Below, in pieces: positions 16,391 to 64,000 of a stretch of 64,000 nt of DNA. Origin of the DNA: Haliclona indistincta (Eukaryota > Porifera > Demospongiae > Haplosclerida > Chalinidae); the NCBI GenBank assembly GCA_964017065.1, contig OZ024790.1, positions 10,242,403 to 10,306,402 on the forward strand. Reading direction: 5' to 3'. The stretch's first letter is position 1. Every line of letters begins with the position of its first letter. The notes under the pieces are model-generated. The model did not search any database and was not told where the DNA came from. It saw only the letters and a program-made list of their open reading frames with translations. The translations under genes were made by a program, and so were the position numbers.

Positions 16391-16509
16391 TGTTTACTTA
16401 CTTAGTTGTTCTTCCTCTACAAGCAGATTATGTTTCCACACAAATTATTTGAAACATAGCTAATTATTTTCAAACATTCTGAAGCTCATGCATGTGTTAT
16501 AATGAAAAA

Positions 16510-41969: not shown

Positions 41970-42974
41970 TCATTTTTTAAAGTAAACAACTCCAATCTGC
42001 TTCATCGCCTCCTCTATCATATTGGCAACAAGCAAGGTTTCTTTGTGGGTCATGACCGGGCTTTCCTTCAACCCTTCCTTCAGACATCTCCTCACTTCTT
42101 CTGCCTCATAACGTAATCCTGTACTGTTACCATAGTAGAGTGGAAGTGCTGGTTCAGGGAGAGGATACTCTTTTGGTCCATCTGGCGTTTCTAGTTTAGT
42201 GGGGCACCAGAAAGGTGCTGGTACTTTTATGTCCCCTTTGTCACCGCATACTACGGCTTGGCACGGAAGATTGCAGCATGTGCCACAAGTAAGTTGAGCA
42301 ATGCGTCCTCCTTTATAAATCAGTGTTACAGTTGCTAATTCGTCTGTTCCATCTTCAGTGAGTTGACCCCAAGCGTGAATGCTCTCCGGTTGTTCTCCTT
42401 CAAAGATCATGCTAGCAAAGTTGAGCACATAAATCCCAACATCCAACAACGCACCTCCTCCGAGTTTAGGGTCAACTACACGCCTAGTTGTCAATGGATC
42501 GCGCCTGAAGGAAAACATGGCGTTTACATGCCTCACAGTGCCGATTTTGCCCTGACTTATCAATCGACGAAGTTCCACCATTGCCGGAAAATATTTCATC
42601 CAAACAGCCTCCATTATAAACAGGTCTTTTTCCTTGGCTTTCGCGAGAAGAGTCTCGGTTTCGCGAACGTTCATGGTCAATGGTTTTTCACAGAGAACTG
42701 GCTTGCCCTTTTCGAGTGCCATAGTGCAGACGGCCAAGTGTGTTGGGTGAACACTTCCCACGTAAACAACGTCTACCTCGGTGTCTGTTGCTACCTCTTC
42801 GTACGATCCATAGGCGCGGGGAATGCTATGGGTCGCCGCAAACTTCTTGGCGTCTTCCAGCGAACGAGCTCCAACGGCGACCACCTTATGATCACTTTCT
42901 GGAAGAGTTCTAAGGCTGACTACGAAATCATTGGAAATTTTCCCTGCACTGCATATTCCCCAGCGAAGAGCCAT
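41970..42974 (-). CDS. Trans-1,2-dihydrobenzene-1,2-diol dehydrogenase-like (Gfo/Idh/MocA)
   Basis: Single-exon frame of 334 residues, the usual length of dimeric dihydrodiol dehydrogenase (DHDH). An N-terminal Rossmann fold starts WGICSAGKISNDF. The family EKP motif is in GKPVLCEKPLTMNVRE near residue 97. The C-terminal catalytic part has MEAVWMKYFP, then GGGALLDVGIYVLN (conserved Asp, Gly and Tyr). Known role: NADP-dependent oxidation of dihydrodiols and some sugars in the cytosol. It ends EEAMKQIGVVYFKK. This appears to be the parent of the 3' fragments at 1,961-2,215 and 23,477-23,625. Confidence 0.88.
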   Translation of the reverse strand: MALRWGICSAGKISNDFVVSLRTLPESDHKVVAVGARSLEDAKKFAATHSIPRAYGSYEEVATDTEVDVVYVGSVHPTHLAVCTMALEKGKPVLCEKPLTMNVRETETLLAKAKEKDLFIMEAVWMKYFPAMVELRRLISQGKIGTVRHVNAMFSFRRDPLTTRRVVDPKLGGGALLDVGIYVLNFASMIFEGEQPESIHAWGQLTEDGTDELATVTLIYKGGRIAQLTCGTCCNLPCQAVVCGDKGDIKVPAPFWCPTKLETPDGPKEYPLPEPALPLYYGNSTGLRYEAEEVRRCLKEGLKESPVMTHKETLLVANMIEEAMKQIGVVYFKK

Positions 42975-43985
42975 GTTTCAGAGTATGATTACAAGGGTGA
43001 ACTGCGAACAACATTCAGTGCGGCTGCGACCTTACCACCACAAAATTTACAGTAAGGCGTCTACCTCATGACCGTACAGACCTCCCCACTATGATTGTTG
43101 TGGTCTGTAGCGTACACATCAAGGGCCGTGTCTAAAACTACTTTTGATAACGAACCAGTAGAACTATTTTAAAGTACACAAAATTTTAGGGGTGCATTGA
43201 CATAATGATCGTTTTATGTGCGCATGAATTTTAACTTGATAAAACTGCAAAACGAGCCGAATGAGAGTGCGTGCCACATGTTCTGGACGATCTGATTGGC
43301 TGAAGGTCACGTGGTTAATAACACGCCAGCTAGATTGGTAGCAGACTAGAGTCTGTAAAGAACTAAGTGCAAGCGGAAGTACGATAGTGACGAGTGAGTC
43401 AAGTAAAAATACGAGTTCAGACCTTAGCTGTGGAACAAAAGGTGACTCGTTATCTGGGTCTAAGTGCAGAGGTAAATTGTAATGATTTGGTTACAATATT
43501 CATGCATGCAGCATACAAAATAATTGTGATCGGAAACCCAAATCTCAAGGTTTTTATCTGGTGGATCATTATTTTTTTGAGATCGATTTTTTTTATTTTT
43601 GAAGTAGTCTGAGTTAGTAGCCTGTTGCATAGTAAAGTTGTGTGTTTAGCTGGTTCGAGAGGACCAGTGTTCTCAAGAGTTGAACCGGTTTAGGGACATA
43701 CATTAATCAAATTTTAGAATTGGTATAATCTTTATGTAAATAATTATAATTTTAAACACCATAATCTTGTGATACCGGCATTACCATACCAATGTGGATC
43801 CCGGACAGCAGGCCGGCCTGGCTTACCCAGTCGTGCCCAACTGATATTCAACAAGTGCAGCAATCTTACCGTTTCAAGTTTTTCTCTATGTGCAATGAGC
43901 TTTTACTACTTTAGTATGAAGCCCGCAAGACCTGTATCTTGCTTCAAGAACATGCACGCATACTGTGCCAAAGGTCGCTTGATCC

Positions 43986-44520: not shown

Positions 44521-47500
44521 ACAAATAACATTGCAGAAAAAAAAGAAGGTGAACCTATTTCTCAATTCTTCCTGTTGATTGCTAAGTGTGTCTGCTTTAC
44601 CCAACAAACATAGGTAGAACATTCTGTAGCTTCAGGAGACTATGAATTTTGGTGTCAGACTGTGAGAACGTGAGACAATGTCTGAGTTTTATTGTAAGTT
44701 GGAAAGAATGCATGCTGTATCTCACAGACTCATTGATGTTCAAAATCCGATCCATAATTATTCTTGTGTGACACGAGATCATTTCTGACCAATTGTCTGA
44801 CATCTTGTATGCTAATTATGGGGCGGGTACCTTAAAATTTTTGTAGGTTTTTGAATTACTGTAATTTTCCTCTGCGAACCACGAAGGCTCTCTGAATTGT
44901 TTCTACGACTAGATGAAGGCAGTTATTATTTGCAATGCAAGTACGACAGCTGGAATACTTGCTGGCGATGCACAAAACAGCTCGTTTTTGACGAAAAACT
45001 TATGGTGGTCTGTGGCAGTTTTCTCGAGTTAGGTCCATGCACCTATTCTAAGAAATCCTTTGGATATAGCTTACAAGCACCAGTGTACATGTCAGCATAT
45101 AGCGTTTTTTCGATAGCATCTTTGTAAGCTAGATTGCTGTATTCCCATGCATTCCAAAACGCTGTACAAAAGAGCTCAAACAGAAATTCAAAAAGTGCTC
45201 TATACGGACTTACAAAAGCTGGAGCCTCCGGTCTTGGCAAAAACTGTATGTTGCTACGTGGTTCCGTTGATGAGAAAACTGCCACGGAGTGCTTTTAATA
45301 TGTTATCTAACTATGAAGGATTCCCAGTCAGTTTACAATGGAATATGACCATACGCACAAGCGGCGCAGCTATAAATTTTAATAACGGTACCCGCCACCT
45401 TGCCTCACTTTACCCATGGGAAATGCTGAACAAATTCAATTTTTTCGCTCAAAACAAAATTTCGAGCATGTAGTAAGTGATTTATAGTACCATTTGGACT
45501 TCCCATAACTTAACTTCCTGTTTGAAATTAGTGCTGAAACAGATACCAGTTGTAGGATATCCGTTGTAATTTTACTATCCAGATATTCAGAAATGAGTAG
45601 GCAGGATATTTTGAGTGGTGGTTCTTTCAATTTTAGTGATAGTAATGAAAGATTTTCTATTACATGGAATAAAAATAACTCCAAAACTGCTTTATGGTTT
45701 AATTTATGATTAATTTGCTCTACTTTCAATATGATATAAAGCGTCTGAATATAATTGATTATCCGGCAGATATTTGAATTGAATTTTAGCACGATATCAG
45801 GATACCAAAATTGTTGATCGTTTCTGTACTATTTGAAATTTTACATACAAAATCAGCCTGGGTGGGGCCCCAAAATCGTAAATTGTGCTGTTTTGATTGA
45901 GACTGAGTCTTTAACTCAACAACTACCAAACTTACATGTGACTTTGGAACAGTATAGTGTATGCGCTTATTCCTTATTACTAAACATTTGACAGTTTTAG
46001 ATGTTGAACGGTAAAATTGATCTTGACGCCACAATACTGACCACACCTCTCAAAAATCTCATTGTTCACGGGTGAATTTTAACGTTTTTATGGCTGGAGA
46101 ACAATTATGCTGACTAGTACTTACGGTGGCTGTTTCAGCTTTAGTTTTTTATTCAGCTTTAGTTTTAGCAGGGGAAATACAGGGTGATACTTGCAAAATA
46201 CAGGGCGATACTTGAAAAATACAGGGCGATACTTGCAAAACAACTGCAAATTATTTTACAAACATAATTAGAGACACATGAATTACCAAGTATTTTATAT
46301 CAGCGGCTTAAATCAATAATTATTAGACAAAGCCTTTAAGAATGTCATAATAATTATAGCAATAATGTCGTGAAGTAAGGCTCCATGTTTTTGTGAATGC
46401 TGTACTAGATGAGATGCCTCACTGTTGTGTGTACATGGCATCATAACAAAATTACTACTATAGTTGCTAGTGTGCTATGCAGGGTATGCCGTCTTGCTAG
46501 TGTGCCTAGAGGTGGCGGTGACTGTTAGCTCATGCAGGTTTCACTGTAACATCAAAATTTTAAGTGAAAATTTGTGTTGCTGATAGCTATACTAGCCTAC
46601 AGTAGATACTTGCACTAGTTTATAGCGTAACACGTGACCTCCAGCAATTGAATCACCCGAATGTGTCACCTATACCAGTGCATTATAAATATACTTTTTT
46701 GTACTAAGTTCTTATCACACACTTAGAGATGCACCATGCAGAGATTGTGGAGATGGCGCGGTAAGCTCTAAAACACTTAGATCACACTGTGGCTGGGAAT
46801 TACATGGCTATTAAAGCACTCGGGGGGTAATTGTCTTGAGTGTAAAATAATAATGAACTTGCCTTTGGCTTGTGCACCTCTTGACCATTCTTAACCATGC
46901 CCTCATACTTTTATGGCCTTTGATCAAAGATGCTACCAATGCAATAAATCGGATATATTGCCCTAGGACCGATAATTCCCTGTGGCCGTTAACAGAACTT
47001 GTAAACATGAATACATTTAGTTGTGCAGAGGTCGAGTTTCAAGTCACAGCGTGAAATTTGTGCTACAAATTTAACCATTGCCTTCGAGTGCTAAATAAAC
47101 TGTAAGACGAGCACTAGTAATAAACTCAACAATTGGATCAGATTCAGTATACGATTCTTTGAGTTGTTGCATGTCACAGTTCATCTTACACATCGTGGCT
47201 GGCTTTCTAGGTAGCATGTGAAAGCTACAGAGAGTGCTGCATCTAGCTAGCTGGAGCATTTATTTTGCCTGATTGACCTCATGTGAGCTCACACGAGTTG
47301 GTTGAACTGCACCCTCCCTCGCTCATACAAGATCCGATTTTTACGACCAATCCCAGGGCAGCACTCATAGTGGGTGTAGTAATGTACACTGTCAAGTGGG
47401 GATTACACTACTACATAAGCATAAGCAGATGTTATTCCAAGTAATATAGGCTTGATGTGGTTGTTTACCATCTAAATCTTATCACCTATAGATTATGACT

Positions 47501-48145
47501 AGCTAGTTACACTAAGTAAACGTTTCCTCATAATTAGTAGCATGCTAATTCAACATTGTGACATCAGTGTATGATTATAAGTAGAAGTTATGTGGTTGCT
47601 AGGCATGCTTTGTTAATAATAAAACTATAATGTAGGCATGCAGACATTCATTAGCAGTATATACTGGTCCGAAACTAAAAGAGATTATAGTTGACAAACG
47701 AGAGGTGATTGTTTGCAAAATTGAAAATTGTTAGTGAGCCCAATTGTGTCAGGCATGCATGTCTAGAGTTAATTGTTTGTGCATAATTCTGCACTGATGT
47801 GTGTATGAATGCAGTAAAACAGTTCACCTGTGTAGTCACTCACCTCTCTAATACGACCACATGCTAGAGTCCCAACTGCAATGAGTTTTACACAGCCACC
47901 TGCCAATTTCACTGGCCCAAAGGTGACAGGATTAGCCAGGTTTCACTTTCTATGAGCTGTCTCAGTTGTCAAAACAGTTTTGACCCACTGCACTTTTCAT
48001 CATAGGAAATTTAGCTGGCAATTGCTTGATGGTGTTTACAGCATACCTACTTCCTAAAGTGCATGCATGTGATAATAGTGAAAACCACTGCACTGGACTA
48101 TAAAAACTGCTACTCTATCAAAGCTTTATCTACCAATCTATCACA

Positions 48146-48750
48146 CAAGAAATAAAAAGATTTCTAACGAAATCAAAAGGATGTAGGGATGGTAGATTAG
48201 CAATGAAGAAATCTGTCACTGGTCCACAATGTAAACAAACAAGGAACTACCCTGGAATGGTAAGACGATTGACTTGCTAACAGACCATAGATCCCTACAT
48301 CAGTGGCTGCACATAAGGATTGGATCTAGAGTAATGGGGTTTAACTTAGATTAAGCTAATTTTAAGCATTAATCAACTTGTTCCAGTCAAATTCTGCAGT
48401 AAGTGTATAAATATAGCCAGCTGGGCTACCAACCTGTATATTTTACTAGACCAAGCTATATTTTACTAGCCCTGGGCTAGCTGGCTAGTGCTAATTTGAA
48501 GCCCTGATCTGATAACAACACTAATAATTGGATCAATAACAGCATCATAGGTAACATTAGTTCACTCTAGATCCAATCCTTATGTGCAGCCACTGATGTA
48601 GGGATCTATGGTCTGTTAGCAAGTCAATCGTCTTACCATTCCAGGGTAGTTCCTTGTTTGTTTACATTGTGGACCAGTGACAGATTTCTTCATTGCTAAT
48701 CTACCATCCCTACATCCTTTTGATTTCGTTAGAAATCTTTTTATTTCTTG
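48146..48750. mobile_element. Foldback element family F, copy F3, with apparently perfect 187-bp arms
   Basis: Left arm 48,146-48,332 and right arm 48,564-48,750 read as exact reverse complements by eye, around a 231-base loop. Outer ends are CAAGAAATAAAAAGATTTCT. It is younger than the diverged F1 and F2. It lies just beyond the 3' side of the Helitron gene. Confidence 0.9.
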
Positions 48751-48822
48751 TTTGTATCCATTTTTCTTAATTTTATTCATAAAAATTTATAATAATCGTC
48801 AAAAATTTTAATAAAAAGTTTC

Positions 48823-49111
48823 TTAATAATACTTTATTTTGAACATGTTTCGTATAGCTATTGGTTGAACAATGTCATTGGTATCATCATCACCTACAAA
48901 AATAAAAATGTGAAAAAAATTGTTAAGCACAAAAAGTAGCCTACCTTTGGTTGATCTTCGACAATATACAGAGACTGTCTTGGTTTCCCCAAATATGGCA
49001 TTAGAAATTTTAACCAGCCACAATGGATACTCAGCCACTCTACCAACGACAAGGTGCAGTCTCACAGAGTGGAAAAAAATTGAGTGTTTGGGTAGACCTC
49101 GCACATACATT
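48823..49111 (-). other. Two putative terminal exons of an unrecognised minus-strand gene
   Basis: Exon 48,945-49,111 (acceptor TCCCCCACAG, donor GTAGGC) encodes GRVAEYPLWLVKISNAIFGE and CRRSTK. It splices in frame to 48,823-48,893 (acceptor TTTTTGTAG), which encodes GDDDTNDIVQPIAIRNMFKI to a TAA stop. The 51-base intron also stays open, so it may be retained. Upstream exons are not found; the Helitron gene lies 750 bases further upstream. It may be host sequence interrupted by, or captured with, the Helitron. Confidence 0.4.
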
Positions 49112-49858
49112 CTGTGGGGGAGAAAATGCAAAGTAAACACAGAGTACGTCCATACAGTAGACATTCACTTATCCATATCAGGAGTACTTGTGTTTATGCA
49201 ATTTTTTTGTCATCAACACTATTACCATGTGCTAAGCTCACAATTGTATGGGCATAATACTAGGTCTGGGGTACTTGCAGACAGTAAAATTGAAATTGAC
49301 CACATGTATGTATAGTAGACTGCCTTATGTAAACACACTTAGTAGGTGATCATAGGTTGCCATTACCAACATCAAGTATACCACCACATGTCAGAAGTAT
49401 TGAGATCAATAAAGAATTGATTACTAACATCTGCGTCATTGCTACATAATACCTCAGTAGACTCAACACTGTGTCAATACCATACATGTGTTGGTAGACA
49501 TGAGGTCAAGTGAATACGATGTATCAGAGCAAGAGCAGAGTTATTATCTCAAAATCAGTAAAGATTACAACACCTGCGGACATGTGATTTCACTCAACGC
49601 TAGTATCAGCAGACACCATGACGACACGGCAATAGTGCTCTGTATTAAAGCACATAAAATGGCTAAGCTCATTGTATTACAGCAGTCACTACACCACATG
49701 GGCAATAGCGCTCTATTTAGAGCACATAACTTGTCTAAGGCAAGCACACACTATGATGACAGATTACACAGTGATCTATTAATTTTAGACATGACTAAAG
49801 CCAGTGTATTGCATCAATCGAAGCACACAAACAATGTTCTTACTTTCATGTCCAGTGA

Positions 49859-52800
49859 TTAAACAGATAATGTTCTAAGGACAACATCATAATGCCCAGG
49901 GAGATATCTCAAATACATTGCCCTTTGTGTTATGTCATCAGGCAAGGTTCTATCAACAGAATGTGGACTAAACCTGTACCAATTTTGATCTTGTGTACTG
50001 TAGGTAAAAATGCAAGTGTTGATGAGATGAGATAAGGTTATTATCTCAATGTCAGAGCCCCAAGTCTCATTCTGATTCATTTTAGTGTCCTCTATGTACT
50101 GTTGTACACTTGAGTAACCTGCAAACAGATCATACTGGTGAGCATACAACAGATGGGAGATTGCTACCATATGATCTAATATAGCTTGGCGTACTGCCAT
50201 GTGCTGAGCTTGTGAACCAGTGATCACATATGAAAAGGAACGGAACATACAGTTCCCATCACCATCTATGTCTTTAGTATGGTTGTGATCAGGTGGAGTA
50301 AGCGGTACATTAGCTCCACCACCTCTGTGTCTGGGTGGTGGATGATGGTGTTCTAGACCAAGAGTAGCGCAAGCAGTTTTTTGCCATTCTAAGTCTACAG
50401 GATAGTAGTAGTACGGCCATCTTTGTGTACGTGCTGGATCAAATGACCCTGTAATTAAGCAATCATCATTTTGTGCAGTAGCAGTAGTGTGAAGTTGCTT
50501 TTTAGGAGCACTACTATTACAAGCTCTTTTGGCTGGTTTAGCAGTTTGAACAGGGGCAGTGCTAGTTCGTTTTCGATGAATGCCCAGGGTGCTAACAGGT
50601 ATTGTTTGTTGCTTGGTAGTGGTTTGTGAGCATTTTATTTTCTTACTGGGAACAACCACAGTATCTACTTGGTCAGTATCAGGTTTTCCAACAAGCTTAC
50701 GTTTAGAAGCCTGTTGAACAGGAATGGTGTACAGAGGAAGATCAGGTCTATACATTTTACGTAGACGATTATACTCCTCTAAAGATCGATTACTGACTAT
50801 AATGGACTTTGGATCAAATGAGAGGAGATGCAAGCCCGTGAGTGATCTTACTCTAGACAAAGCAACATAAGCCATTGCAGCACAAAAAACTTTATCCGAC
50901 AGATCAATAATGGCATGGTCCAGGGACAATCCTTGGGACTTGTGTATAGTAACAGCATATGCCAATATCAACGGAAATTGTTCTCGACGAACATAGTAGT
51001 TTTTCATAACAACGAATCTGCTCTTGACCCTTTCAACCTGATATGGGCTGGTCAAGTGATCAAATTGTACAGTTACAAATTGTTTAGTTATTGCAGTAAC
51101 TGTACCCAATGAACCATTGACTAGGCCTTTCTTTGTGTCAACGTTACGGCGTAACATAACACGTGCTCCAATAGCTAACACTAGAACACTTTGCAGTCCT
51201 CCAGTCATGTTGCAATCATGGTTTAATTTATGGAGCTGTTTGTCCGCAGTTTTTGTCCACTTAAGTTTACTGACAGTTTCGTCAACATCATCAGTACATT
51301 CTAGTTCGAATGATTTACCAGGAAGAGATTTGAGCATTTTATTGTTTAGCTCGTCACATTGCTTGCGTGTAGGAAAAAACGTTACTACCATTATTCCTTG
51401 TTCTTGCAACTCAGCAATTTTCTCAGTCAATGAGCAAGTAAACACTCTTGATTGGAGAGTGCTAATGGTGGAGCTTGTAACTTCACCAATTCTAATACCA
51501 TTAAGCAGCGTTGCATAGTCTTTGTCACCTTTCTGACGCTCATTGATGGTTAGCTCATCGTATACAACAGTTTCTTCCCATATATTGGGAGAGGTTGCAC
51601 AGCCTATTCTGTACTTGACTACAGTGTCAGGTACAGGTGAAAATACTGGTTGACCACCAACAGGCTCAAGTTGAAGCAAATCACCAAAAACAATCATATT
51701 TCGTGCTCCAAAGTAGTCAACACCTCCATATAGCTCATTCAAACGTAGATGAATGTAAGCTAGATTTAGGCTACTGACCATGGAAATTTCATCTACGATG
51801 AATAATTTCACATTACGCAGAGCTGTTTTCATCACTTTGTGTGCAGCTTTTGGTAAAGACCAATGAACGGCTGACCTACCCCCGTGCTGGACAGGTAGCT
51901 GAAATAACCGGTGGATAGTCATGCCACCAACATTAAACGCAGCTAAACCTGTTGGTGCAGTTATGGCACATGAGCAATCAGCACTAGGCCACAGTTGAGC
52001 TACAAATGCTTTGATTGTCTCGATCAAAAATGATTTACCAGTTCCAGCGACACCTGTGACAAACATGCACAATGGAGGTAAGTCACAAGAACAATCATTT
52101 GTTTCATGTTGTTGCACGTGAATCATATGCTCTTTGACTTTGTCAAATATTCGTCTCTGATCAGCATTCAACATGTTAGTCCTATCGGAAAGACTAAGTG
52201 TGTCTTCACACTTAGTGACCATGCTTACAGCATCCTGCATTGCAGCAACTGCTTCACAGATTAGCTGTGGCTCATTATCAACCTTTTGCTCTGGACAATC
52301 AGATTGTCTGGCTTCATTGATTAGTTTAACACTACGATTACATTCAAGCATCTGCTGTAATCGAGTGTGGTGAGTCAAGCAACGGTGTTCACCAGTGTCA
52401 GGAATATGACGATTAAATGCTTCTTCAGCAGTTTCGTCTTCTAGTAAAAGCTCACTCTCATTTCGGAAAGGCACAAAAAGCATGATTAGAGAATAGTAAT
52501 AATCTTCTTTCTGATTTTCATTTCTCAAATCATATAACTTGTGATTGGGTAACACAGGTTTGCCGCGCCTTTTGAATTCAGTTTGTTTCACGCCTTTGAC
52601 AATAGTGTGATACCAACTGTAATTAGCGACAATGTCGTAAAGACACACGTCCTCAAGCTTATTAGGACGATTGGGATAGTATGTGTCTACAAGATTCGAC
52701 TCAAATAAATCCTCACTATCAGGATCTGATTTTGAAAGCTCCGTCAAAGCTGCGTGACTTTTGAGTCGTCGATTTCGTTTGTGAGGCATAGATACATTTA

Positions 52801-55800
52801 CAAACTGTATCGCTTCCGATTTTTCAGTCAAGTGGTCACCCAACAACAAGTCGGCAGCCTCATACAAACCACACTCTCGTGAGCTCAAAGCTTTCATTCC
52901 AAATTTGTAGAGCTTGCTATAAATGCTCTTACTGTCTTGGATTTCTCTCCAAATGTCTTGCATGTTGCTTCTTTCTGCTTTAGTGACATACCCACTAACG
53001 TAATGAGCTAATGCAAGAGAAGACTCTGACACAAACTGTATGTCAATGTTAGCTTTCCACAATAACAGAATCAGAGGATTATAGTCATTCACTCTAACCT
53101 CTGACTCTGTTCGTGGAAGTTCGTAGATTTTCTTACGAGTTTTAAGAGAGTCTTCTACAGAGTGCACAATACCTGTTTCACAAGCCGGACGAGGAAAGCC
53201 AAACTTACAGTAAGTTATGAACGTACTGCCGACCTTTCGTCTGCGCTTGCAATATGCACTACACTTATGCATTTGATATCTTGTGACGAGCTCATGCAAT
53301 TCAGGACTGGTTTTCTTGTCAGGAATGTGACAAGTAACCCTTTCCTGGATCCATTTCAATACAACAGCAGAGTCATCACAGCCAATAACAGGTGCATCTT
53401 TTATCCACAACAGGACGTGGTAATGAGGTGCACCTCTGGCTTGATACTCCTTCTTCCAGTAGAAGTGCTCTACTTCACCCAATATCTGACCTTTACAAAT
53501 GACAATGCGGAAGAAGGCATGAAATTTCTCAGAAAATTTTCGAGAAACCGATATAGGATCTTCTGTGCAAAGTCTTCCCATATCGTAACTTGGAGAGACA
53601 TTGTTTACCTTCCTGAGGTAACGAGCCATGTCACTCCACTCATATTCAGCACAACTGAATGTGAGAAACAATGTTGGTGATCCCCAGTTACGCACCATGC
53701 ACTTGAGATCACTCTTACGCTGCCACCAGTACTGTTTGCTACCGCGTACTGACTGAAGCATTGTGAAGAGGCTTGCTTCTAACCGTTCATCAGAGGCTTC
53801 AACCTTAGCTAGTAGCTGCTTAACAGACATAGCAACTCCTCGTGAGGAATGAAGGACATTGTAGACGCCGTTACCTACTTCACGTAGGGTTTTTTGATTC
53901 AGCAGATAAAATACATATGAAGCATCTTTGCGAAATCGTGAGTCTTTGTTATGCAAACGTTGTTTGACAAACTCGCTAAAGCTCAAAGTGATTTCTTTGT
54001 TGCGAGGATGATTCTCACCAAATTGCCCGTTTGGGTAGAGTACAGGAAAGCACATAACATCCAAGTCTTTCAATCTACTGTGAATAGGTGCTTCTGTAAC
54101 ATTAACCAACTTGTATTGATCTATGTCAGAAACAGTTGGAATCTGATTATCTAAATACCTAATAGTATAGGACTGATAACCAGCTATATCGTCAGCAGTA
54201 GCCTTATCTAGCATCTTAGTGGTTGCATTGTTAGCCACTTCGATTACTTTTTGTGTAGTTTCATCGAGACTGTCTGCTTCTACTGACTTATAAAGTTTGT
54301 GAATCTCTTTCAGCTTTCTTATAGCTGCTTTCACACGTTCTATATTGACCAGTGAACGCCAGACAACATTGGCTTTTGTGGGTTTACCATTCACTAGTAT
54401 GTACAATTCTGGTGATGCAACACCAGACTTTGCCGATCCTTCAACATTGGACAGCGTTTCACACGTTTTATTGAATGGTAAAGGCAGAAAAAATACACTA
54501 CCCTTGCAAGCTTTCAATGAGTTGTACACAGGCACTTTGCAGGTGTATGTGCCTAATCTAACTACTGTCTGAAAGCATTTAGCAAGCTGAATGAACTGTT
54601 TGCTAAGGGCATCGAGTTTATCAAGCTCAGATGGAATGGGTATGGTTTCCAAACCATTTAAAACACATCGTGGTGGCAATACATCGGCTTTGATTTTGGG
54701 TTTACAGTAGCTACACATATAGAGTGTTTCATCCTCGCCTGGAGGAGTGTGCTTCAGTATATAGTCTACTAGCTCTGACCCAATGTCCGAATCAAAATGC
54801 TTTGAGAAGTTGGCTTTTGTGACAGATTTTCTCTGAAACAAGCATTGACAGCTACAACACACGTTTTCAGCATCGTCATTCCACTCTTTCTCAAGTTGGG
54901 ATATGACTAGAGAATGCTGTAACTGCAAGGTGGTTTCTAAGTTGAGCACTCTAAAAAACGAGTTGTTTATTGAGGAGCCTTCCTCGCCAACAAAATCATT
55001 AGTTGTTAGCAACTCGTCAAAGCTTTTCTTAGTTGCACAAAGTAAATGCTTGAAATCACCTTCGCCTAGGGCACGATCAATGCCAGCAAGGGATTCGTGA
55101 CTTGCCTTTGCACGATATACTCGACGCATAAACGTTCTCAGTACTTTATGATGTGCTGAAGCTGCTCGTAAGATACGAAGCTCACTATTACACATACTAC
55201 CAGTTTGATGACATGCCAAAGAATGACCCATCATTTGGCGTTCATTTGGGCAGTCATCGCATGATTGTAATGCTTGTCGTAACTCATGCATTGGAAGAGT
55301 AAAGGCATTCTTTAGTCTAACAATTGCATTGACTTCATCATCAGTGATTGGCTTACAATCACTGGTACACGGCATTTCATCACGAGGCTGGCTGGAAGGA
55401 TCAATACGATCAGGCACATCTGAATCATCATCATCCTTTACATACGATGCTTCATAGAAGTATGGATCACATGATCTTTTGCAATGAATGCCTTCACCAA
55501 AGTCATCTCTGCTTTTCATGCTCTTTGCATTGATACTTTTAGCAGATTTAATCAATTCAGCAGCATATTCCTTGCGCTTCTTTAAGGCTTCATGAACCAG
55601 CCTACGAGCTGCTATTCTACATGCAACACGATAAGAGATTCTAGCCAATCGCTTTGCTATAGGCTGCTCTTTAAAAGCTTTCATAACCTCGGTTCTTGCT
55701 TTACGATTTGCTAGCAATTCTCTTATCATTTCATTTATGTACATTTCCTTTACACTAGATTTTGGAGGAGACAAATAGTATTTGTTTCTCCTAGTGTGGG

Positions 55801-56287
55801 AAATGATTTCTTTGTGTTTAGCATAGTACGCCATACAAGCTTGTGTCTTAACCTTCGTGTTTTTGAGATACCAAACACGCGATGACACTTTCTTCTGATG
55901 CGAACTATTTTGGTACTTTGCCCTACGTTGTGCTTTGATTTTATCTGATTTACTATGGTACCTGGACAAAGCAGCAACCTTCTTAGCAGTTGAATCTTTC
56001 AAATAAGCCTGCTTTGACGACAACTTCTTATGTGCAGGGTTTCTGCCGTAAGCCTGCCTTGACGCCAATTTGTTATATGCAGGGTTTCTTTCATAAGCCT
56101 GCTTTGACACCAATTTCTTAGCCGCTGGGTTTTTGTTATAAGCCTTCTTTGAAGCAATTTTAGATGCTACTTTCTTAGACTCAGAATTGGTATCATATGC
56201 TTCCTTTCTCCCAGCTAGTATTTTATCTCTATTCTCTCCATAACGTTGCTTATCGTATGTGTGTTTTCTACGTGTTTTACTAGGCAT
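49859..56287 (-). CDS. Helitron Rep-helicase with C-terminal OTU domain
   Basis: Uninterrupted frame of about 2,142 residues from MPSKTRRKH (an upstream in-frame Met at 56,425 is less likely). Order: a basic N-terminus with tandem 16-residue repeats (KKLVSKQAYERNPAYN type) at about 35-110; a cysteine-rich zinc-binding-like region near 480-540 (CCSCQCLF, CSYCK); Helitron-like N and Rep domains, with the HUH motif in ARGAPHYHVLLW near 950 and paired tyrosines in YVSGYVTK near 1,090; a PIF1-like SF1B helicase with Walker A GVAGTGKS near 1,409, Walker B IVDEIS, then VFGDLLQLEPV, TIHKSQGLSLDHA and VALSRV; and an OTU cysteine protease-like end from DIDGDGNCMFRS near 2,006 to PGHYDVVL. Known role: rolling-circle-like transposition. 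It appears intact and so potentially autonomous. The element termini (5' TC, 3' CTRR with hairpin) could not be located with confidence. Confidence 0.93.
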   Translation of the reverse strand: MPSKTRRKHTYDKQRYGENRDKILAGRKEAYDTNSESKKVASKIASKKAYNKNPAAKKLVSKQAYERNPAYNKLASRQAYGRNPAHKKLSSKQAYLKDSTAKKVAALSRYHSKSDKIKAQRRAKYQNSSHQKKVSSRVWYLKNTKVKTQACMAYYAKHKEIISHTRRNKYYLSPPKSSVKEMYINEMIRELLANRKARTEVMKAFKEQPIAKRLARISYRVACRIAARRLVHEALKKRKEYAAELIKSAKSINAKSMKSRDDFGEGIHCKRSCDPYFYEASYVKDDDDSDVPDRIDPSSQPRDEMPCTSDCKPITDDEVNAIVRLKNAFTLPMHELRQALQSCDDCPNERQMMGHSLACHQTGSMCNSELRILRAASAHHKVLRTFMRRVYRAKASHESLAGIDRALGEGDFKHLLCATKKSFDELLTTNDFVGEEGSSINNSFFRVLNLETTLQLQHSLVISQLEKEWNDDAENVCCSCQCLFQRKSVTKANFSKHFDSDIGSELVDYILKHTPPGEDETLYMCSYCKPKIKADVLPPRCVLNGLETIPIPSELDKLDALSKQFIQLAKCFQTVVRLGTYTCKVPVYNSLKACKGSVFFLPLPFNKTCETLSNVEGSAKSGVASPELYILVNGKPTKANVVWRSLVNIERVKAAIRKLKEIHKLYKSVEADSLDETTQKVIEVANNATTKMLDKATADDIAGYQSYTIRYLDNQIPTVSDIDQYKLVNVTEAPIHSRLKDLDVMCFPVLYPNGQFGENHPRNKEITLSFSEFVKQRLHNKDSRFRKDASYVFYLLNQKTLREVGNGVYNVLHSSRGVAMSVKQLLAKVEASDERLEASLFTMLQSVRGSKQYWWQRKSDLKCMVRNWGSPTLFLTFSCAEYEWSDMARYLRKVNNVSPSYDMGRLCTEDPISVSRKFSEKFHAFFRIVICKGQILGEVEHFYWKKEYQARGAPHYHVLLWIKDAPVIGCDDSAVVLKWIQERVTCHIPDKKTSPELHELVTRYQMHKCSAYCKRRRKVGSTFITYCKFGFPRPACETGIVHSVEDSLKTRKKIYELPRTESEVRVNDYNPLILLLWKANIDIQFVSESSLALAHYVSGYVTKAERSNMQDIWREIQDSKSIYSKLYKFGMKALSSRECGLYEAADLLLGDHLTEKSEAIQFVNVSMPHKRNRRLKSHAALTELSKSDPDSEDLFESNLVDTYYPNRPNKLEDVCLYDIVANYSWYHTIVKGVKQTEFKRRGKPVLPNHKLYDLRNENQKEDYYYSLIMLFVPFRNESELLLEDETAEEAFNRHIPDTGEHRCLTHHTRLQQMLECNRSVKLINEARQSDCPEQKVDNEPQLICEAVAAMQDAVSMVTKCEDTLSLSDRTNMLNADQRRIFDKVKEHMIHVQQHETNDCSCDLPPLCMFVTGVAGTGKSFLIETIKAFVAQLWPSADCSCAITAPTGLAAFNVGGMTIHRLFQLPVQHGGRSAVHWSLPKAAHKVMKTALRNVKLFIVDEISMVSSLNLAYIHLRLNELYGGVDYFGARNMIVFGDLLQLEPVGGQPVFSPVPDTVVKYRIGCATSPNIWEETVVYDELTINERQKGDKDYATLLNGIRIGEVTSSTISTLQSRVFTCSLTEKIAELQEQGIMVVTFFPTRKQCDELNNKMLKSLPGKSFELECTDDVDETVSKLKWTKTADKQLHKLNHDCNMTGGLQSVLVLAIGARVMLRRNVDTKKGLVNGSLGTVTAITKQFVTVQFDHLTSPYQVERVKSRFVVMKNYYVRREQFPLILAYAVTIHKSQGLSLDHAIIDLSDKVFCAAMAYVALSRVRSLTGLHLLSFDPKSIIVSNRSLEEYNRLRKMYRPDLPLYTIPVQQASKRKLVGKPDTDQVDTVVVPSKKIKCSQTTTKQQTIPVSTLGIHRKRTSTAPVQTAKPAKRACNSSAPKKQLHTTATAQNDDCLITGSFDPARTQRWPYYYYPVDLEWQKTACATLGLEHHHPPPRHRGGGANVPLTPPDHNHTKDIDGDGNCMFRSFSYVITGSQAQHMAVRQAILDHMVAISHLLYAHQYDLFAGYSSVQQYIEDTKMNQNETWGSDIEIITLSHLINTCIFTYSTQDQNWYRFSPHSVDRTLPDDITQRAMYLRYLPGHYDVVLRTLSV

Positions 56288-56599
56288 GATTACTATTACT
56301 ATACAAGAACTAACCTTCTTCAAAGTAATTATTAAACTTACAACTTTCTTCAGTGACAGATCGAGACACGAGACGACGAACCCAAAAGCAAATCCAAACT
56401 TCGGTGAGGCAAAAGTAGAAATCAACAGTCACAATCTTCTGAAATGGACGAACTATTACAAACGGGTAGAGCCAGGGGTAGAGCAGCAGAAACACAAGTA
56501 GAAGCCACTCAAAGACAACATGTGCGCGCTCACGTTACATCACGTGCGCATTTAAATGGCGGTATACACATTGCTAGCTACAGCTCGTGATCGTGAAGT

Positions 56600-56995
56600 C
56601 CGCTAGAATAAAACTTTCATTTCGCTAAGAACTAAGTTCAAAAGGCACATGCCAGACGAATTTCATGATTATTCGTGGGTGTTTAGCCCAGCACAGTATT
56701 CGTGTTAAGGCGCTAGACGAGTGGAAGAAAGAATAAGAAGAAAACGAAGATGACGAAACTCGATTTTCACCGTTTCCAGGTTCGTCACTTTAGTAACAAT
56801 TTCGAGCAATCTCCTTGCTACTGTAAGATGGGGCAACGCCAGATAGCAGATCTAAGTGTCTATGGACGTATAAAATTCATCACCAGGCGAAATATCAGCG
56901 TTTGAACGCTAATACATTGTATGTAGCCGCCATCTTGTTTTCTCGTTCATCCCTACATAGGGAGACACTACCGTGTCTCCCTAATACTCTTCAAT
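56600..56995 (+). repeat. Dispersed repeat R, copy R4 (right part)
   Basis: Matches about 470-856 of R1 in the same orientation, including the terminal GGGAGACAC/GTGTCTCCC hairpin, and diverges after CTAATA just as R1 does. It lies 300 bases upstream of the Helitron frame. Confidence 0.75.
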
Positions 56996-57645
56996 AACTA
57001 TTTTTATTCCGTATACATAAAGTGCAGTTTCATTTTTATATTCATGTATGTGCCAAGTTATATGAATACATGTCCATGCATACACATCAGTCATACCTGC
57101 TAGTACATATCATAAATTATTATGATTACTTAAAGTAGCCAGATGACATGTACTTTAAGTATAGCATAATACGCATGCATGACCAAACAGTGATACTGCC
57201 AAATGCATAATTATTATCATTATGAACCCATGACCAAAAGATATAGTACCTATCATAATTGTTTGCATACGATATAGAAAACCCTGCAGTCAGCTGATAA
57301 GGTATGGGGATTATAAGGCTTATAATTATTTCAACAGCAAGCAGTGTTCTCTCCAGGATTAAACATTCAAGTTTTGCATTGACACCAAAAATTAATTTAA
57401 CACTTTTGGAATGAGTATACAGTCTGTAACTATGATTTCAGGCTCAAAATAACCACAAAAATAATGAGAATTAAGTGGTGCATTATCAAAACCAAGTGGT
57501 GCAACACCACTCAAAAATAGCCCAACGAGAACCGTGGGCACTGACAGCAAGAAAACATGCGCTTATAGTTATGTGAGATGCGCCTAACAATTCGCCAGTA
57601 TGGTAATCGCTATAACTGATTCACAACCTGTATGCATAAATGCAT

Positions 57646-57878
57646 AAAGACTTTTATTCAAAATTTACTCAAGACAATGCAGTCAGACAATGGGCAGTTT
57701 TATACCTGTACTGGAGCACCATTTATGATTCATTATAGCTTCTCCATAGTAAAACAACTATTATGGTTATGGAGAAGCTATACGAATGATAAATGGTGCT
57801 CTATAGTACAGGTATAAAACTGCCCATTCCTGACTGCATGAGTTGCATTGTCTTGAGTAAATTTTTAATAAAGGACTT
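57646..57878. repeat. Foldback (hairpin) repeat
   Basis: Two arms of roughly 105 bases (ACTTTTATTCAAAATTTACTCAAG…, TTTATACCTGTACTGGAGCACC, TAGCTTCTCCATA) with a short AT loop near 57,750. The rest of 57,000-58,600 is AT-rich and shows no gene. It presumably includes the promoter of the oxidase gene. Confidence 0.8.
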
Positions 57879-58918
57879 GTGCTCTGTTTTTTGTACATGT
57901 GTCCATACACATTTTAATGCTCCCAATTTTGGAATGTATCAGTGTACTGTGTGTAATTTCTTATAGAATGCAGACTTGTTATCTGTAATACTTTTTACCA
58001 ATACCAAACCACAGATGAAGCCCATCCAGCTGTTACCAAGATTGAATCAGTACATCTGGAGAAGCCAGCCTTCTGAACCTCTCTACTGGCTGACAAGCAT
58101 GACTTGCAATACAGCTTGGTCTTATAGGATAAGAGCCAGCTTGTCATGAGCGTATTTGATCACGGTCTGCGTGACATGAAACTTAGCAAAAAACAAGAAA
58201 TAATTTCTGACCTGACTCTCTATAGTCTAACTATCATCAATGCTTAGTAATCACCATCATCATGTATTGTACGTTATTTTTAATGTAATATTTATCCTAT
58301 TACACACTGAGGGCCTAATGAGTCAGTGCTATGTGCAGCCTTCACTCGACCTCTTTTTATGACAATCTATAGCATAAACGTAGAGATTTTCCGGCGCCAG
58401 GAAAATTTCGTGGGTAAAATATAAAATGTATTGGGACGGCTGACGCGAAACATTTCGCGCTCAATGAAAAACGCGAACACTCGAAATTTTCTACGTTTAC
58501 GGTATGGTCATACCAGTAGCAGAGTTCTAACACCAGGCTAGGGTACAAGTCAACTGACATAAGATACTGTGAAAATAATGTATTTAAAACTGATGAACCG
58601 CTATACATTTTGCTCAAAACGTTATCACAGCTGTACACCATAGCTATAGCACGACTAGGCTCTGCTGTCATGCAAGTGCTTTACTATAGCTATAAATATG
58701 TATGTAAATGGTGTGTCAGCAAGCAAGCTATCATCCTATACATTCAGCACTGGAAATTACTCTTTCTTCGCTTCTGCCGTTCGTTCACGCATGCGCGCGT
58801 CATTCGAGATTATATATACGGCATGCAGGCTGGTATAAAACTATGCGAAGTCATTTTGTTTCATGTCAAAAGATTGACCGTCATAAACTGCTTCACGAGT
58901 ACGAGCGGGCGTACAACG

Positions 58919-61900
58919 ATGGATGAAAATGAGACTGAAAGCGTCGACGGTGGTGGTAATATCATTAAAACCCAAGTACTCATTGTAGGCAGCGGCTTGC
59001 TTGGCGCAACGTTTGCACGCAGACTGACAGAAGGAGGCATGCAGGTGCTTATGATTGATGCTGGAGCGCAACTTTCTCCTGAACCTGGATGGCATTTGAA
59101 AAACTCCTTTCTCTATCAGAAAGATATTGATCTTTTCCCGGGAGTGATTCAAGGTCAAATGTCTCTATTCTCGGTGCCTCCGGACAGGCGTGCGAATCCG
59201 ACTCTAGATCCGGACGCATTCACGTACGACCGTGACGATGAAGAATACAAAAGGTATAATTTTCACCAATAATGATTAGCTATTACCTGGTTTTTTTTTA
59301 GCTTTGTTCAAAAGGGACAAAACCCAACCCAAAGTCCCTACGACAATTTGCCAGCAGCGTATGCTACTTACGCAGTAGGCGGAATGGGAACACACTGGAC
59401 GAATGCTACGCCACGTGAGAATCCAGATGTTGAACGAAGCCCGCTTTTAAATAAAGAAGAATGGATCCACTATTATGGTGAATCTGAAAAACTATTGAAA
59501 ACGACTCAAGAAATGTACAAGGGTATTCGTAACACTGTTGTAAGAGAAAATCTGATCAAAGCATATCCTAAATTAAAAGCTCCTTATTCTCCCCAACAAC
59601 TACCACTTGCTGGCGAGAGAAGAAAAGAATCCCCCGAATTTGTTACCTGGACCGGAAGCAATACCGTACTTGGCAAGAAACTAGTCGAACAGATAATGTC
59701 GAAGAAGGAAGAGCTGATAAAACTCAAGGTAAATCTTTCACGCGACGAAAAGTTACCGTGACTATAGTGATGAATTCAAGTTCACTTCCGGCGCACAGTT
59801 TTAAAAAGATACAAGATATTTTGCATGTTTGTGCACTCTGTGAACCGGCCGCGTGGCAGCGTTTACGTCAGTGAAAGCTGCATGGCGCGGGCTGAGGCCA
59901 CAGTAACATGATGCAGCCAGACTGGCTTGAATAAAATTATGATGTACACGCAATAATAATGCTACTGTAAGCCGGTGTTTGTGCAAATTCCTGGTTTGCG
60001 CGGAATATAATATTCTTGTGTGAAAAGCCAGACCGACTCGAGTGCATTATCCGCGTCTTAAAGTATTAGGTCAAAGATCAAAGACGCCGCCATGCTCATA
60101 GTGCACACTTTTGCCGGGAATTAATTTTATTGCACCAAGATGGTCGCCAACACGTTGTGAGTCACTTCAAGGATCTTTGACCGAGGTATGCTCTAAGGTT
60201 ACAAGATACTGGGCGTGGTTTGCGTTTCTCAGCAAGCGGTGCTCTACGTACTAAAACTTGGAAGATTTCAAGAGCAATAGATTAAGAAAAGGAAAGTATA
60301 CAACAAAAATAAATACTGTAGCTATTGCTGTTCGTGCGCTATGGCAGCCCCAAAATCAGACAACTACCGATTAGCCAAAAACCTCTCCTTGGACGATCAC
60401 GGTCAACTTGACAAATTTGCGCTTGGCGGTACATAGCAACAGTATGAGGGATTGACGAGAGCTTTTTTGCTTTGCTTTTTCCTGAATCAATAAACTAGCT
60501 GTAGAGTGTAGAAAATGGCATCGAATGCCAAATCCATGTACACATCCTCGCGTGGCTCGAATACGAAAAGAGATGTCACAAAAAAGATCTCGTCAATCCC
60601 TCCAAAAAGCCTTTCTTCCTTGGAGACCAAACGGCTTTCTCTACATTTCCTTATTTTGGCTACAAAAATTGCAACACGAAACGCAATACAAAAATACATT
60701 GATAACCGCGTATTTAAATGTACCGACAGTACCGCCACTGAAGAGTGGTTGCTCAGAGCAGAAGCGGATCTAGGGGGACCTGCCAGGGGGCCCATGGCCC
60801 CCAAAATTTCCCAGTAACATAGCCAGTAATAAGCCACACAATGGATTTTGTAAAAACTGTACAAGCCCACAAGTCACGTTCTATCATCTGATTGGCTGGA
60901 TGTTCAAGTTCTTAACTGTACAATTTTTACTATACCTCTTTTCTATTATATTATAGCCTATGTGGCAATGTATCCAGCTTGTTCGCAGCTATGATGGAAA
61001 AACTATCGAACTTGCTATAGTGAAGGATCTGCTCAATGATCAGTTATACCAAATTCGTGCCAAAGTGTTTGTTCTTGCTGCAGGAGCAATTCTTACTCCA
61101 CAGATTTTGTTCAATTCTGGTATTAAACCCTGCGCTCTTGGTCATTACTTATGTGCTCAAACCATGGCCTTCTGTCAGATTGTTCTCAAGCAAGAAATTG
61201 TTGACCGCATTCCTAATGATCCGCGTTGGGCAAAGGAGGTCGCAGAGTACCAGAAAACTCACCCTCATGACCCCATTCCAATTCCAATGAGTGATCCAAC
61301 TCCACAAGTAAGCAGCAGCAGCTCATGTACAGTTTAAGTTGTAACTATACCTATAATAGTTATGGCATCATAGATTACATGCAGCTATTATGCATGGATT
61401 GATGCTGCATCAGCACATCTATATGTATAAACTCTTCATGTAAAAAAGCATTAATTTTAATGATAATATTATACTTTATTTAGTGTTGGGTCCCTGTTTC
61501 TAAAACTCACCCATGGCATTGCCAAGTTCATGTGGATGCATTTTCCTATGGAGAAGTAAAACCCAACGTTGATCCTCGACTCATAGTGCAGTTACGTTGG
61601 TATGCAAGAGTAAACCCCAGTTATGCAAAACGAGTTGAATTCTCAGATAAAAATGTTGACACCTACTCTATGCCACAACCAACATTTCACTACTCGTTAA
61701 CGAAAGAGGAAAAAGATGATGCCCATAAAATGATGAAGGACATGTGCCATGCAGCCAGTGCTCTTGGTGGGTATCTACCAGGGTCAGAGCCTGCATTTTT
61801 AGATCTTGGTTCGGCCCTACATATCACAGTGAGCATACATGTATAGAATACAATCACTTAAGCAATAATTATTAATCATTATAGGGAACTTGTCGCATGG

Positions 61901-62115
61901 GTGCCAACAATGATGGAGAGTCGGTTGTTGACACCAACTCTAAAGTTTGGGATTTCACAAATCTCTACATTGGTTCGTGTGCAGTGATTCCTACTGGGAC
62001 AGCTTGCAACCCGACCAACACTGCCATGGCCCTCGCCATCAAATCCTGTGATGAAATCTTAAAACAGAACAAAAGGGGAATGTTCAAGTGCGACAAACTG
62101 GCTTCTAAACTTTAA
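58919..62115 (+). CDS. Pyranose 2-oxidase-like GMC flavoprotein with a peroxisomal SKL terminus
   Basis: Five exons: 58,919-59,253, 59,302-59,728, 60,957-61,307, 61,484-61,828 and 61,885-62,115. All are GT-AG with consistent phases, giving 562 residues. The N-terminal FAD Rossmann motif is [34 protein letters not shown] corresponds to the pyranose oxidase block whose His binds FAD covalently. The C-terminal catalytic part has [20 protein letters not shown], then [10 protein letters not shown], the usual His and Asn pair of the family. Known reaction: oxidation of aldopyranoses such as glucose at C2, reducing O2 to H2O2. The last residues are LASKL, a canonical PTS1 signal, implying peroxisomal import. 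Start MDENETES is chosen because homology begins soon after. Intron 2 (1,228 bases) carries repeat-like sequence near 60,760. Length is near bacterial homologues and shorter than fungal ones (about 620). Confidence 0.88.
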
Positions 62116-62549
62116 TATCTAGCTGGACAACTATAGTGCATGAACTTGATGTACGTGAAGTCACATTTTAACTCCCATAGTAAACAATGTAGCTAAATTT
62201 ATGTACTGGTTGTTTAATAATTTTCATACTATAATGCTGTATCTGTCAACATCAGTGATTTGAATTCGCTGAAAATAAGTTATTTTTATCTGACACTTTC
62301 ATGAATGATGTAATAGAAGAGACTCGAAAGATAATATTAATAATGAGACTAAAAATGAAAAAGAACAAAATATAGGACACTATATGCTTGAGTGGATTAG
62401 AATGTTTGAAGTGTGTATAGAACTCATCTAAGCAACGATAACACTTGTGTCATAAAGCCTGAGATTGTGGTGTGTCGTGTGTGATAAAAGCAGAAGAGAC
62501 ATAAAAAATGCACAGAATTGAGTTATGTGAATGGTTGTAAAAGTTTCGG

Positions 62550-64000
62550 TTATGAGCTTGACTGTGCAACAACTTCAACATCTCTCTGCAGTCTCTTTAG
62601 AGTGTTGACTGCGAACTGGTGTGTTACGCTTCTAAAGCTGACTCCGTTCACTGACAGTATCACATCCCTCGGCTTCAAGCCTCCCTCCCGCCCGGCTGCA
62701 CTGTCCTTCGATACAGACTTGACGCATATCGGCAGGTCTCCGTTTGGACTTCCCTTGCCACCAACGATACTAAATCCCAGACCACCAGAACAACGATTCA
62801 GATGAACAACCTTGATACTGCAATATGAGAAACACAAAAATTTGAATAATTTATGCTAACCGCATAAAATTTTAACAGGTGAAAGTATTTTGTGTGTTTG
62901 TGTGAAATTATTGCAATGTCTGATAAACTTGACGAAGATTACATCAAAAAATTGTAAAATCTTACTTTCCTGGTGGTTGCTGGAATTCTGGAGCAGGTGT
63001 GATGTGTGGTTGTTGATATAGATGCTGTCTACTGTCAGGTAAGCTCTGACCAACAATGCAACATCACGATAAAGAGACTGTTTGTGAAGATAGTCATCTT
63101 CAGCTACCTCTTCGAGTGACGTGTCCTTTGCATCAGAGTGGCGCCTCTAATCCCTCTACTAAGAGGCGAGGTAAAGGAGGGGATGGAGTCCTGCCCGTGA
63201 GGTGTGTGTGACTTTTTGCTTCGACCAGATCCTGCAAAGTACATAAACACCAATGTAATGTACATAGTGCTTCTGAATAGAATACAGACAGTATGTGACT
63301 AGTTGTAGTCGATAGCATGCTACAATATTGTGTTCTTGTCACCTCTTGTCGATGAAGAATTAGAGAACTCAGAGTAATGTTGTCCGTACGAGGCAGCAGC
63401 GGCGTGAGAGGTATCAGCGTGATCCGGTGTGGGTGCCGATAGTGTGCTGTGACCTCTGGGCACGTGCCTCACGGTCAGTTCAACGGTACCTCGACAAGCC
63501 TGTACATCAGAGAGAGAGAGAGAGAGAGAGCCATGACACAAATGGTGTATATGTACGGCTCATACCAATACATGAGAAGGTCTACATTTTTACCACACAT
63601 ACAGTAAACAAAAACATTTTACAGTAACTTAAATCTACACGAATTCGCGGGTGCTCTTCCATTGCAAAATTACGTGATTATTGTGATTTAGTCAATCACT
63701 TTTATACAGGACGCCAAAAAACGTGAAATTTATTGAATAACGCAAATCCGAGCAAATTGTATTAAAATAAAAATTTTACGGTTATGTATTGACATTTGTA
63801 CCTGTAGAAGTTGTATCACATGATCTTGTGTGGAGGTGGACACATTTTCTCTATTGACCGCTAGTATCGCGTCACCTGGTCTGATCCGACCACTCCTGTG
63901 AGCTACCTCTCCTGGTACCTGTACAGGAAGACAACCAGCAGTACGGTAACAGCACAATCACATTGAAAATGATTCAATGCTTACCAAACGATGGACAACG
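62550..64000 (-). CDS. 3' end of a multi-PDZ scaffold protein (runs off the window)
   Basis: Exons, 5' to 3': 63,985-64,000 (partial), 63,802-63,918, 63,343-63,499, 63,108-63,231, 62,966-63,043 and 62,550-62,817 (stop). Phases join cleanly. The first visible part is the second half of a PDZ domain (SGRIRPGDAILAVNRENVST). A Ser/Pro/Gln-rich linker follows (SLPDSRQHLYQQPHITPAPE). The C-terminal PDZ has the carboxylate-binding GGLGFSIVGGKGSPNGDLP and LKPRDVILSVNGVSFRSVTH, and the chain ends VEVVAQSSS. The protein is probably a membrane-associated scaffold; the exact family (PATJ/MUPP-like or other) cannot be told from this part. 62,116-62,549 between the two convergent genes shows no gene. Confidence 0.82.

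Follow-up and report, generated by a model that had tools for sequence, protein, structure and literature searches.

In the passages cited here, reviews treat pyranose 2-oxidase (POx) as an enzyme of fungi and bacteria (PMC6509819), and a bacterial origin via transfer has been proposed for fungal POx (PMC6581175, PMC6509819); whether fungi received it in a single very early transfer followed by massive loss, or in several transfers, is left open there (PMC6509819). We describe a POx gene in a stretch of 64 000 nt (the window) from the sponge Haliclona indistincta (assembly GCA_964017065.1, 144 033 363 bases in 46 contigs). The window is C8:10242403-10306402, C8 being contig OZ024790.1 with 12 954 103 bases. 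Judged by its sequence, the locus is a genuine, functional-looking POx of the GMC superfamily and CAZy AA3_4 type. What is new is a POx member in animals, a group for which no POx study was found in the open-licence literature searched. Our best explanation of the data as a whole, to which we assign a probability of roughly 0.7, is that the gene encodes an animal POx, one of two tandem copies (copy A in the window and copy B downstream), that would work as an H2O2-making sugar oxidase and would go back to a single entry of the family into the lineage.

According to our splice model, the gene of copy A begins with the ATG at 58919 and ends with the TAA at 62115 of the forward strand. The coding sequence of 1689 nt translates, in frame and with no internal stops, into 562 amino acids; GT...AG borders were seen at all four introns. 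A preliminary description of the window had reported a five-exon POx-like gene at 58919..62115, with a THWT block for covalently bound flavin adenine dinucleotide (FAD) and a catalytic His/Asn region, and its coordinates proved to be exact. The THWT block occupies residues 142-145, the FAD-linking His is invariant across our 103-row alignment (A3), and the His/Asn pair aligns with that of Trametes. The features of the gene are as follows.

58919..59253, + strand: POx exon 1 (splice model), with the ATG, the Rossmann FAD-binding strand and the GSGLLG motif; conserved in copy B
58988..59005, + strand: GSGLLG dinucleotide-binding motif, residues 24-29 (alignment)
59302..59728, + strand: POx exon 2 (splice model), with the flavinylation motif; exon 2 of copy B is 427 nt too
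59387..59401, + strand: flavinylation motif GTHW plus Thr, residues 141-145; His143 = Trametes His167, Thr145 = Thr169
59729..60956, + strand: intron 2, 1228 nt in copy A and 1522 nt in copy B
60957..61307, + strand: POx exon 3 (splice model); 351 nt in copy B also
61484..61828, + strand: POx exon 4 (splice model), with the substrate loop and the catalytic His; 345 nt in copy B also
61535..61561, + strand: substrate loop DAFSYGEVK, residues 389-397; Asp/Phe/Tyr = Trametes 452/454/456
61820..61822, + strand: codon of catalytic His484 (= Trametes His548; alignment to Trametes)
61885..62115, + strand: POx exon 5 (splice model), with the catalytic Asn, the C-terminus and the TAA
62008..62010, + strand: codon of catalytic Asn528 (= Trametes Asn593; alignment to Trametes)
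62104..62112, + strand: C-terminal Ser-Lys-Leu (...LASKL) of copy A, a putative peroxisomal targeting signal type 1 (PTS1; splice model)

With the NCBIfam equivalog model TIGR02462 (pyranose_ox; cut-off 544.9 bits), copy A scored 554.2 bits (E-value 3.9e-166). With Pfam, GMC_oxred_C was above its cut-off (77.3 bits) and GMC_oxred_N slightly below (21.0 versus 23). The best sequence match in PDB was 9fl2, the pyranose oxidase of Oscillatoria (425.8 bits, E-value 2e-126), with fungal pyranose 2-oxidases next at ∼369 bits. Other GMC classes were considered and rejected, given seven further NCBIfam models with scores far under their cut-offs and the 92-row tree described below; copy A fell short of the GMC equivalog cut-offs of PRK02106 (52.4 versus 605), betA (45.6 versus 732.1) and cholesterol oxidase (35.5 versus 850). 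Placement inside another GMC class, which the preliminary description had named as the outcome that would speak against POx, was not what we observed: the protein falls inside the POx tree. The predicted monomer of copy A has the POx fold, and fungal POx matches it better than glycoside-oxidase structures do; the model was built from 103 sequences and replaced an earlier one from 18 sequences (pLDDT, predicted local distance difference test, 78.7).

Three protein searches (E-value ≤0.001; the best 120 of 527, 513 and 849 proteins) led to 232 fetched proteins, and a scan of GTDB genomes to 61 loci. The named animal relatives among the matches listed are all from corals: Montipora foliosa (P0003, P0005), M. 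capricornis (P0011), Acropora millepora (P0008) and A. cervicornis (P0121). When the alignment of animal-type rows was used as query, the top ten consisted of these five coral proteins together with P0001, P0002, P0004, P0006 and P0007, and the named rows below them were all bacterial (best 120 of 513). Among the matches listed, P0001 is the closest to the window protein (65% identity); identities are 49–57% for corals and up to 54% for bacteria. Two scans of viral contigs produced no viral relatives, with short patterns from one sequence as queries and thus as weak evidence. It was observed by eye that the N-termini of P0004 and P0005 carry an arginine-rich extension with no acidic residues (MLSSVVKFGRPVWR...), which resembles a mitochondrial presequence; if it is one, POx compartments differ between animals.

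A quick tree of 92 rows (copies A and B, 56 of the 232 proteins and 34 of the 61 loci) was flagged for long branches among the outgroup rows; it placed the 12 animal-type rows in one clade with a support of 99 by the Shimodaira–Hasegawa-like approximate likelihood ratio test (SH-aLRT), and joined animals and fungi with 87. After removal of 28 long, odd or redundant rows, a careful tree of the remaining 64 rows recovered the animal clade (100/99) and, in it, one group of the window copies with P0001 (97/91) and another of the remaining animal rows (100/99); fungi joined animals with 96/87. In another careful tree, with 65 rows, the support was 100/99 for animals and 100/100 for fungi, with bacteria split from animals and fungi at 91/87. 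In approximately unbiased (AU) tests, with groups that were defined after the trees had been seen, joining to bacteria was rejected for the window-type rows (p 1e-4) as well as for the coral-type rows (p 6.6e-5). As all animal-type rows form one clade and separate bacterial origins are rejected, a single origin of animal POx as one lineage is well supported; a tie of this lineage to fungal POx is favoured. Exon boundaries of coral genes, which we attempted to derive from skipped stretches in the gene models P0011 and P0121, were suggestive at best and were not used.

Copy B is complete and lies at C8:10319864-10323316, 18.5 kb downstream of copy A. It has five exons of 320, 427, 351, 345 and 207 nt and encodes 549 residues; the two copies are identical at 504 of the 549 aligned residues. 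The exon-5 DNA search of the assembly found copies A and B only, with no third POx copy. Three methods gave 0.043–0.045 nonsynonymous (dN) and 0.109–0.124 synonymous (dS) substitutions per site between the copies. Parts of window 45022-48145 and of window 56984-63824 are matched by sequence near copy B; therefore, the gene and its flanks were duplicated together. Window 48146-56983 has no collinear counterpart there. It holds an open frame of 2189 amino acids at 49859-56428 (- strand) whose domains, Helitron_like_N, PIF1 helicase and OTU, mark it as a Helitron Rep/helicase; this frame thus probably inserted after the duplication or was lost beside copy B. By eye, intron 2 of copy B (L009:6050-6370) contains an inverted repeat that resembles a miniature inverted-repeat transposable element, with arms of ∼75 nt and a short spacer, and this repeat is absent from the sequence of intron 2 in the window.

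The copies differ at the C-terminus. Ser-Lys-Leu, with which copy A ends, is the canonical PTS1 tripeptide; copy B ends with ...GMFK and has no such tail because a 16-nt stretch of copy A is missing from it. Endings of the form [SAC][KRH][LM] were found in none of the 232 fetched homologues; composition predicts 0.23% for this pattern and 0.03% for SKL. Yeast alcohol oxidase, a GMC enzyme too, bears a C-terminal peroxisomal signal, and fungal POx is reported to lack a conserved localisation motif (PMC6509819). Among the titles listed for POx with peroxisomes (8 of 11 papers), none dealt with a peroxisomal POx. A peroxisomal location of copy A seems, from its tail, somewhat more probable than not.

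The enzyme would then work as follows. Family and residues suggest that FAD is covalently bound to His143. His484 and Asn528 would take the proton of the C2 hydroxyl, and a hydride would pass from C2 of D-glucose or D-xylose to N5 of FAD, giving a 2-keto sugar. O2 would re-oxidise FADH2 through a C4a intermediate, with Thr145 assisting, and H2O2 would be released. The -SKL tail might bring copy A into the peroxisome and so within reach of catalase, which could break down the H2O2; copy B, with no tail, would be cytosolic. The single entry would predate the split of the window and coral lineages, perhaps even the parting of animals and fungi, and the source family would ultimately be bacterial.

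Several observations weigh against this explanation. Copy A exceeds the TIGR02462 cut-off by a small margin of 9 bits, and of three coral proteins tested, two (P0003 and P0008) are just below that cut-off. Copies A and B share Val388; in the 22 other POx-aligned rows shown, this residue is Arg or Lys (the three outgroup rows of glycoside-oxidase type differ around this position across the whole substrate loop). The dN/dS ratio of 0.35–0.41 is relaxed relative to many enzymes. The SKL ending, which copy B and all fetched relatives lack, is possibly a chance one. Among the 10 non-window rows of the animal clade, the animal label of five rests on their position between the window copies and corals. 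Finally, the AU test does not reject animals with bacteria (p 0.119 for the 64-row set and 0.183 for the 65-row set) or fungi with bacteria (p 0.106).

In the strongest rival explanation, the animal gene derives from a single bacterial transfer on the animal stem, separate from the one that supplied fungi. A grouping of animals with bacteria, excluding fungi, is not rejected by the data at the p-values just given; the POx family is mostly bacterial, with window-to-bacterium identity as high as stated above, and its patchy distribution is typical of transfer. Both careful trees, on the other hand, join animals and fungi. We consider this rival a credible one, somewhat short of even odds. The preliminary description had suggested either an ancient transfer or an overlooked early-animal family, to be checked by a protein search and a tree with fungal, bacterial and metazoan homologues. 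That check revealed the coral relatives and the single animal clade, which supports an animal family of single origin; between vertical descent from an ancestor shared with fungi and a bacterial transfer on the animal stem, the tests do not decide (AU p 0.106–0.183). A fuller scenario puts POx in the last ancestor that animals share with fungi, with later loss in most lineages and survival in corals, some fungi and the lineage of the window; one copy in the window species would since have turned into a peroxisomal H2O2-making glucose oxidase. This scenario is tentative and on the whole doubtful.

An enzyme acting at C3 of glycosides, as glycoside 3-oxidase or C-glycoside oxidase, and not at C2 of a free sugar is unlikely. 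The flavinylation motif is GTHW and not the GVHW or (G/A)AHW of clades III–IV, and DAFSYGEVK is a loop of the monosaccharide type, as in clade I with DAFHYGDVP, and not LDASPVPL (all according to the parts of PMC10807413 cited here). The protein groups with POx, away from the rows of glycoside-oxidase type, and the better structural match to fungal POx in the predicted model points the same way.

Still less probable is that corals and the lineage of the window each acquired the gene recently by a transfer of their own, e.g. from symbionts. In favour of this, the distribution is patchy, with acroporid corals the only named animals among the matches listed. However, the AU test rejects either half of the animal clade joining bacteria without the other, the window-type and coral-type halves are ∼55–59% identical, far from near-identical, and P0001, P0002, P0004, P0006 and P0007 are inside the same clade.

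Contaminating bacterial, fungal or symbiont DNA is very unlikely, its chance being close to nil, because of the four spliceosomal-type introns (already taken as an argument against a bacterial contig in the preliminary description, and rightly so), the contig of 12.95 Mb in an assembly with animal signalling genes and the duplicated flanks; no positive support for it was found, the gene is not placed among fungi in the trees, and the coral relatives sit on contigs of 37–76 Mb. The signalling genes are matches to Wnt, Ets, Frizzled, TGF-beta and zf-C4, families restricted to animals or nearly so, each with matches in none of 14 control genomes. These matches are all on contigs other than C8, and C8 itself carries two laminin-EGF matches out of 69 listed in the assembly.

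Animal-type neighbours had been named in the preliminary description as CPT2, MFSD8 and a PDZ scaffold. We confirmed a carnitine acyltransferase (PF00755, 482.6 bits), at the level of the family and not of CPT2 itself, and a PDZ domain (PF00595, 59.8 bits); the open reading frame at 15038-16393, taken as the MFSD8 candidate, had no Pfam match at E-value ≤0.001, which leaves MFSD8 unconfirmed. A sugar-related oxidoreductase lies 16 kb from the POx gene, at window 41970-42977 (- strand); encoded in a single frame, it is homologous to dimeric dihydrodiol dehydrogenase (PDB 2o48, 305.7 bits), and one could speculate about a functional link. PF18637 (AUDH, the glucosone-processing partner) had no matches in the genome, with a model that also matched none of the 14 control genomes. 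At 33578-34060 (- strand) we noticed by eye a frame of 160 amino acids made of degenerate repeats, HRYFHVPFSQVF-like. Elsewhere in the assembly, many cathepsin-type (Peptidase_C1) exon matches are clustered at C10:4136419-4149257; no silicatein-type active site was present in 30 peptidase loci examined out of 80 matches.

An H2O2-producing sugar oxidase, one copy of it with a peroxisomal signal, would be added by animal POx to early animals that hold symbionts. The animal clade offers an outside point for dating the entry of the POx family; if the grouping of animals and fungi holds with more taxa, this entry dates before the animal–fungus split.

Among described systems, glycoside 3-oxidase and C-glycoside oxidase (PDB 7qf8, 7dve) share with copy A the GMC fold and the His/Asn pair and differ from it in flavinylation motif, substrate loop and, as far as the cited parts of the sources describe it, non-covalent FAD. 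The bacterial clade I enzymes KaPOx of Kitasatospora aureofaciens and OPOx of Oscillatoria princeps (9fl2) have the motifs, the short head region and a length similar to that of copy A, but differ in having no introns and in forming separate tree branches; copy A has Gln80 where OPOx has Glu69, a residue whose role is discussed in the cited part of PMC11650716. Fungal POx of Trametes ochracea/multicolor (PDB 1tt0), ∼40% identical to copy A, shares the fold, the covalent-FAD His, Thr169, the substrate loop and the His/Asn pair, and its head domain is longer. The coral proteins, known by database annotation as 'pyranose 2-oxidase-like' or uncharacterized, have no SKL ending, unlike copy A; they belong to the same clade as the window copies and keep all key residues.
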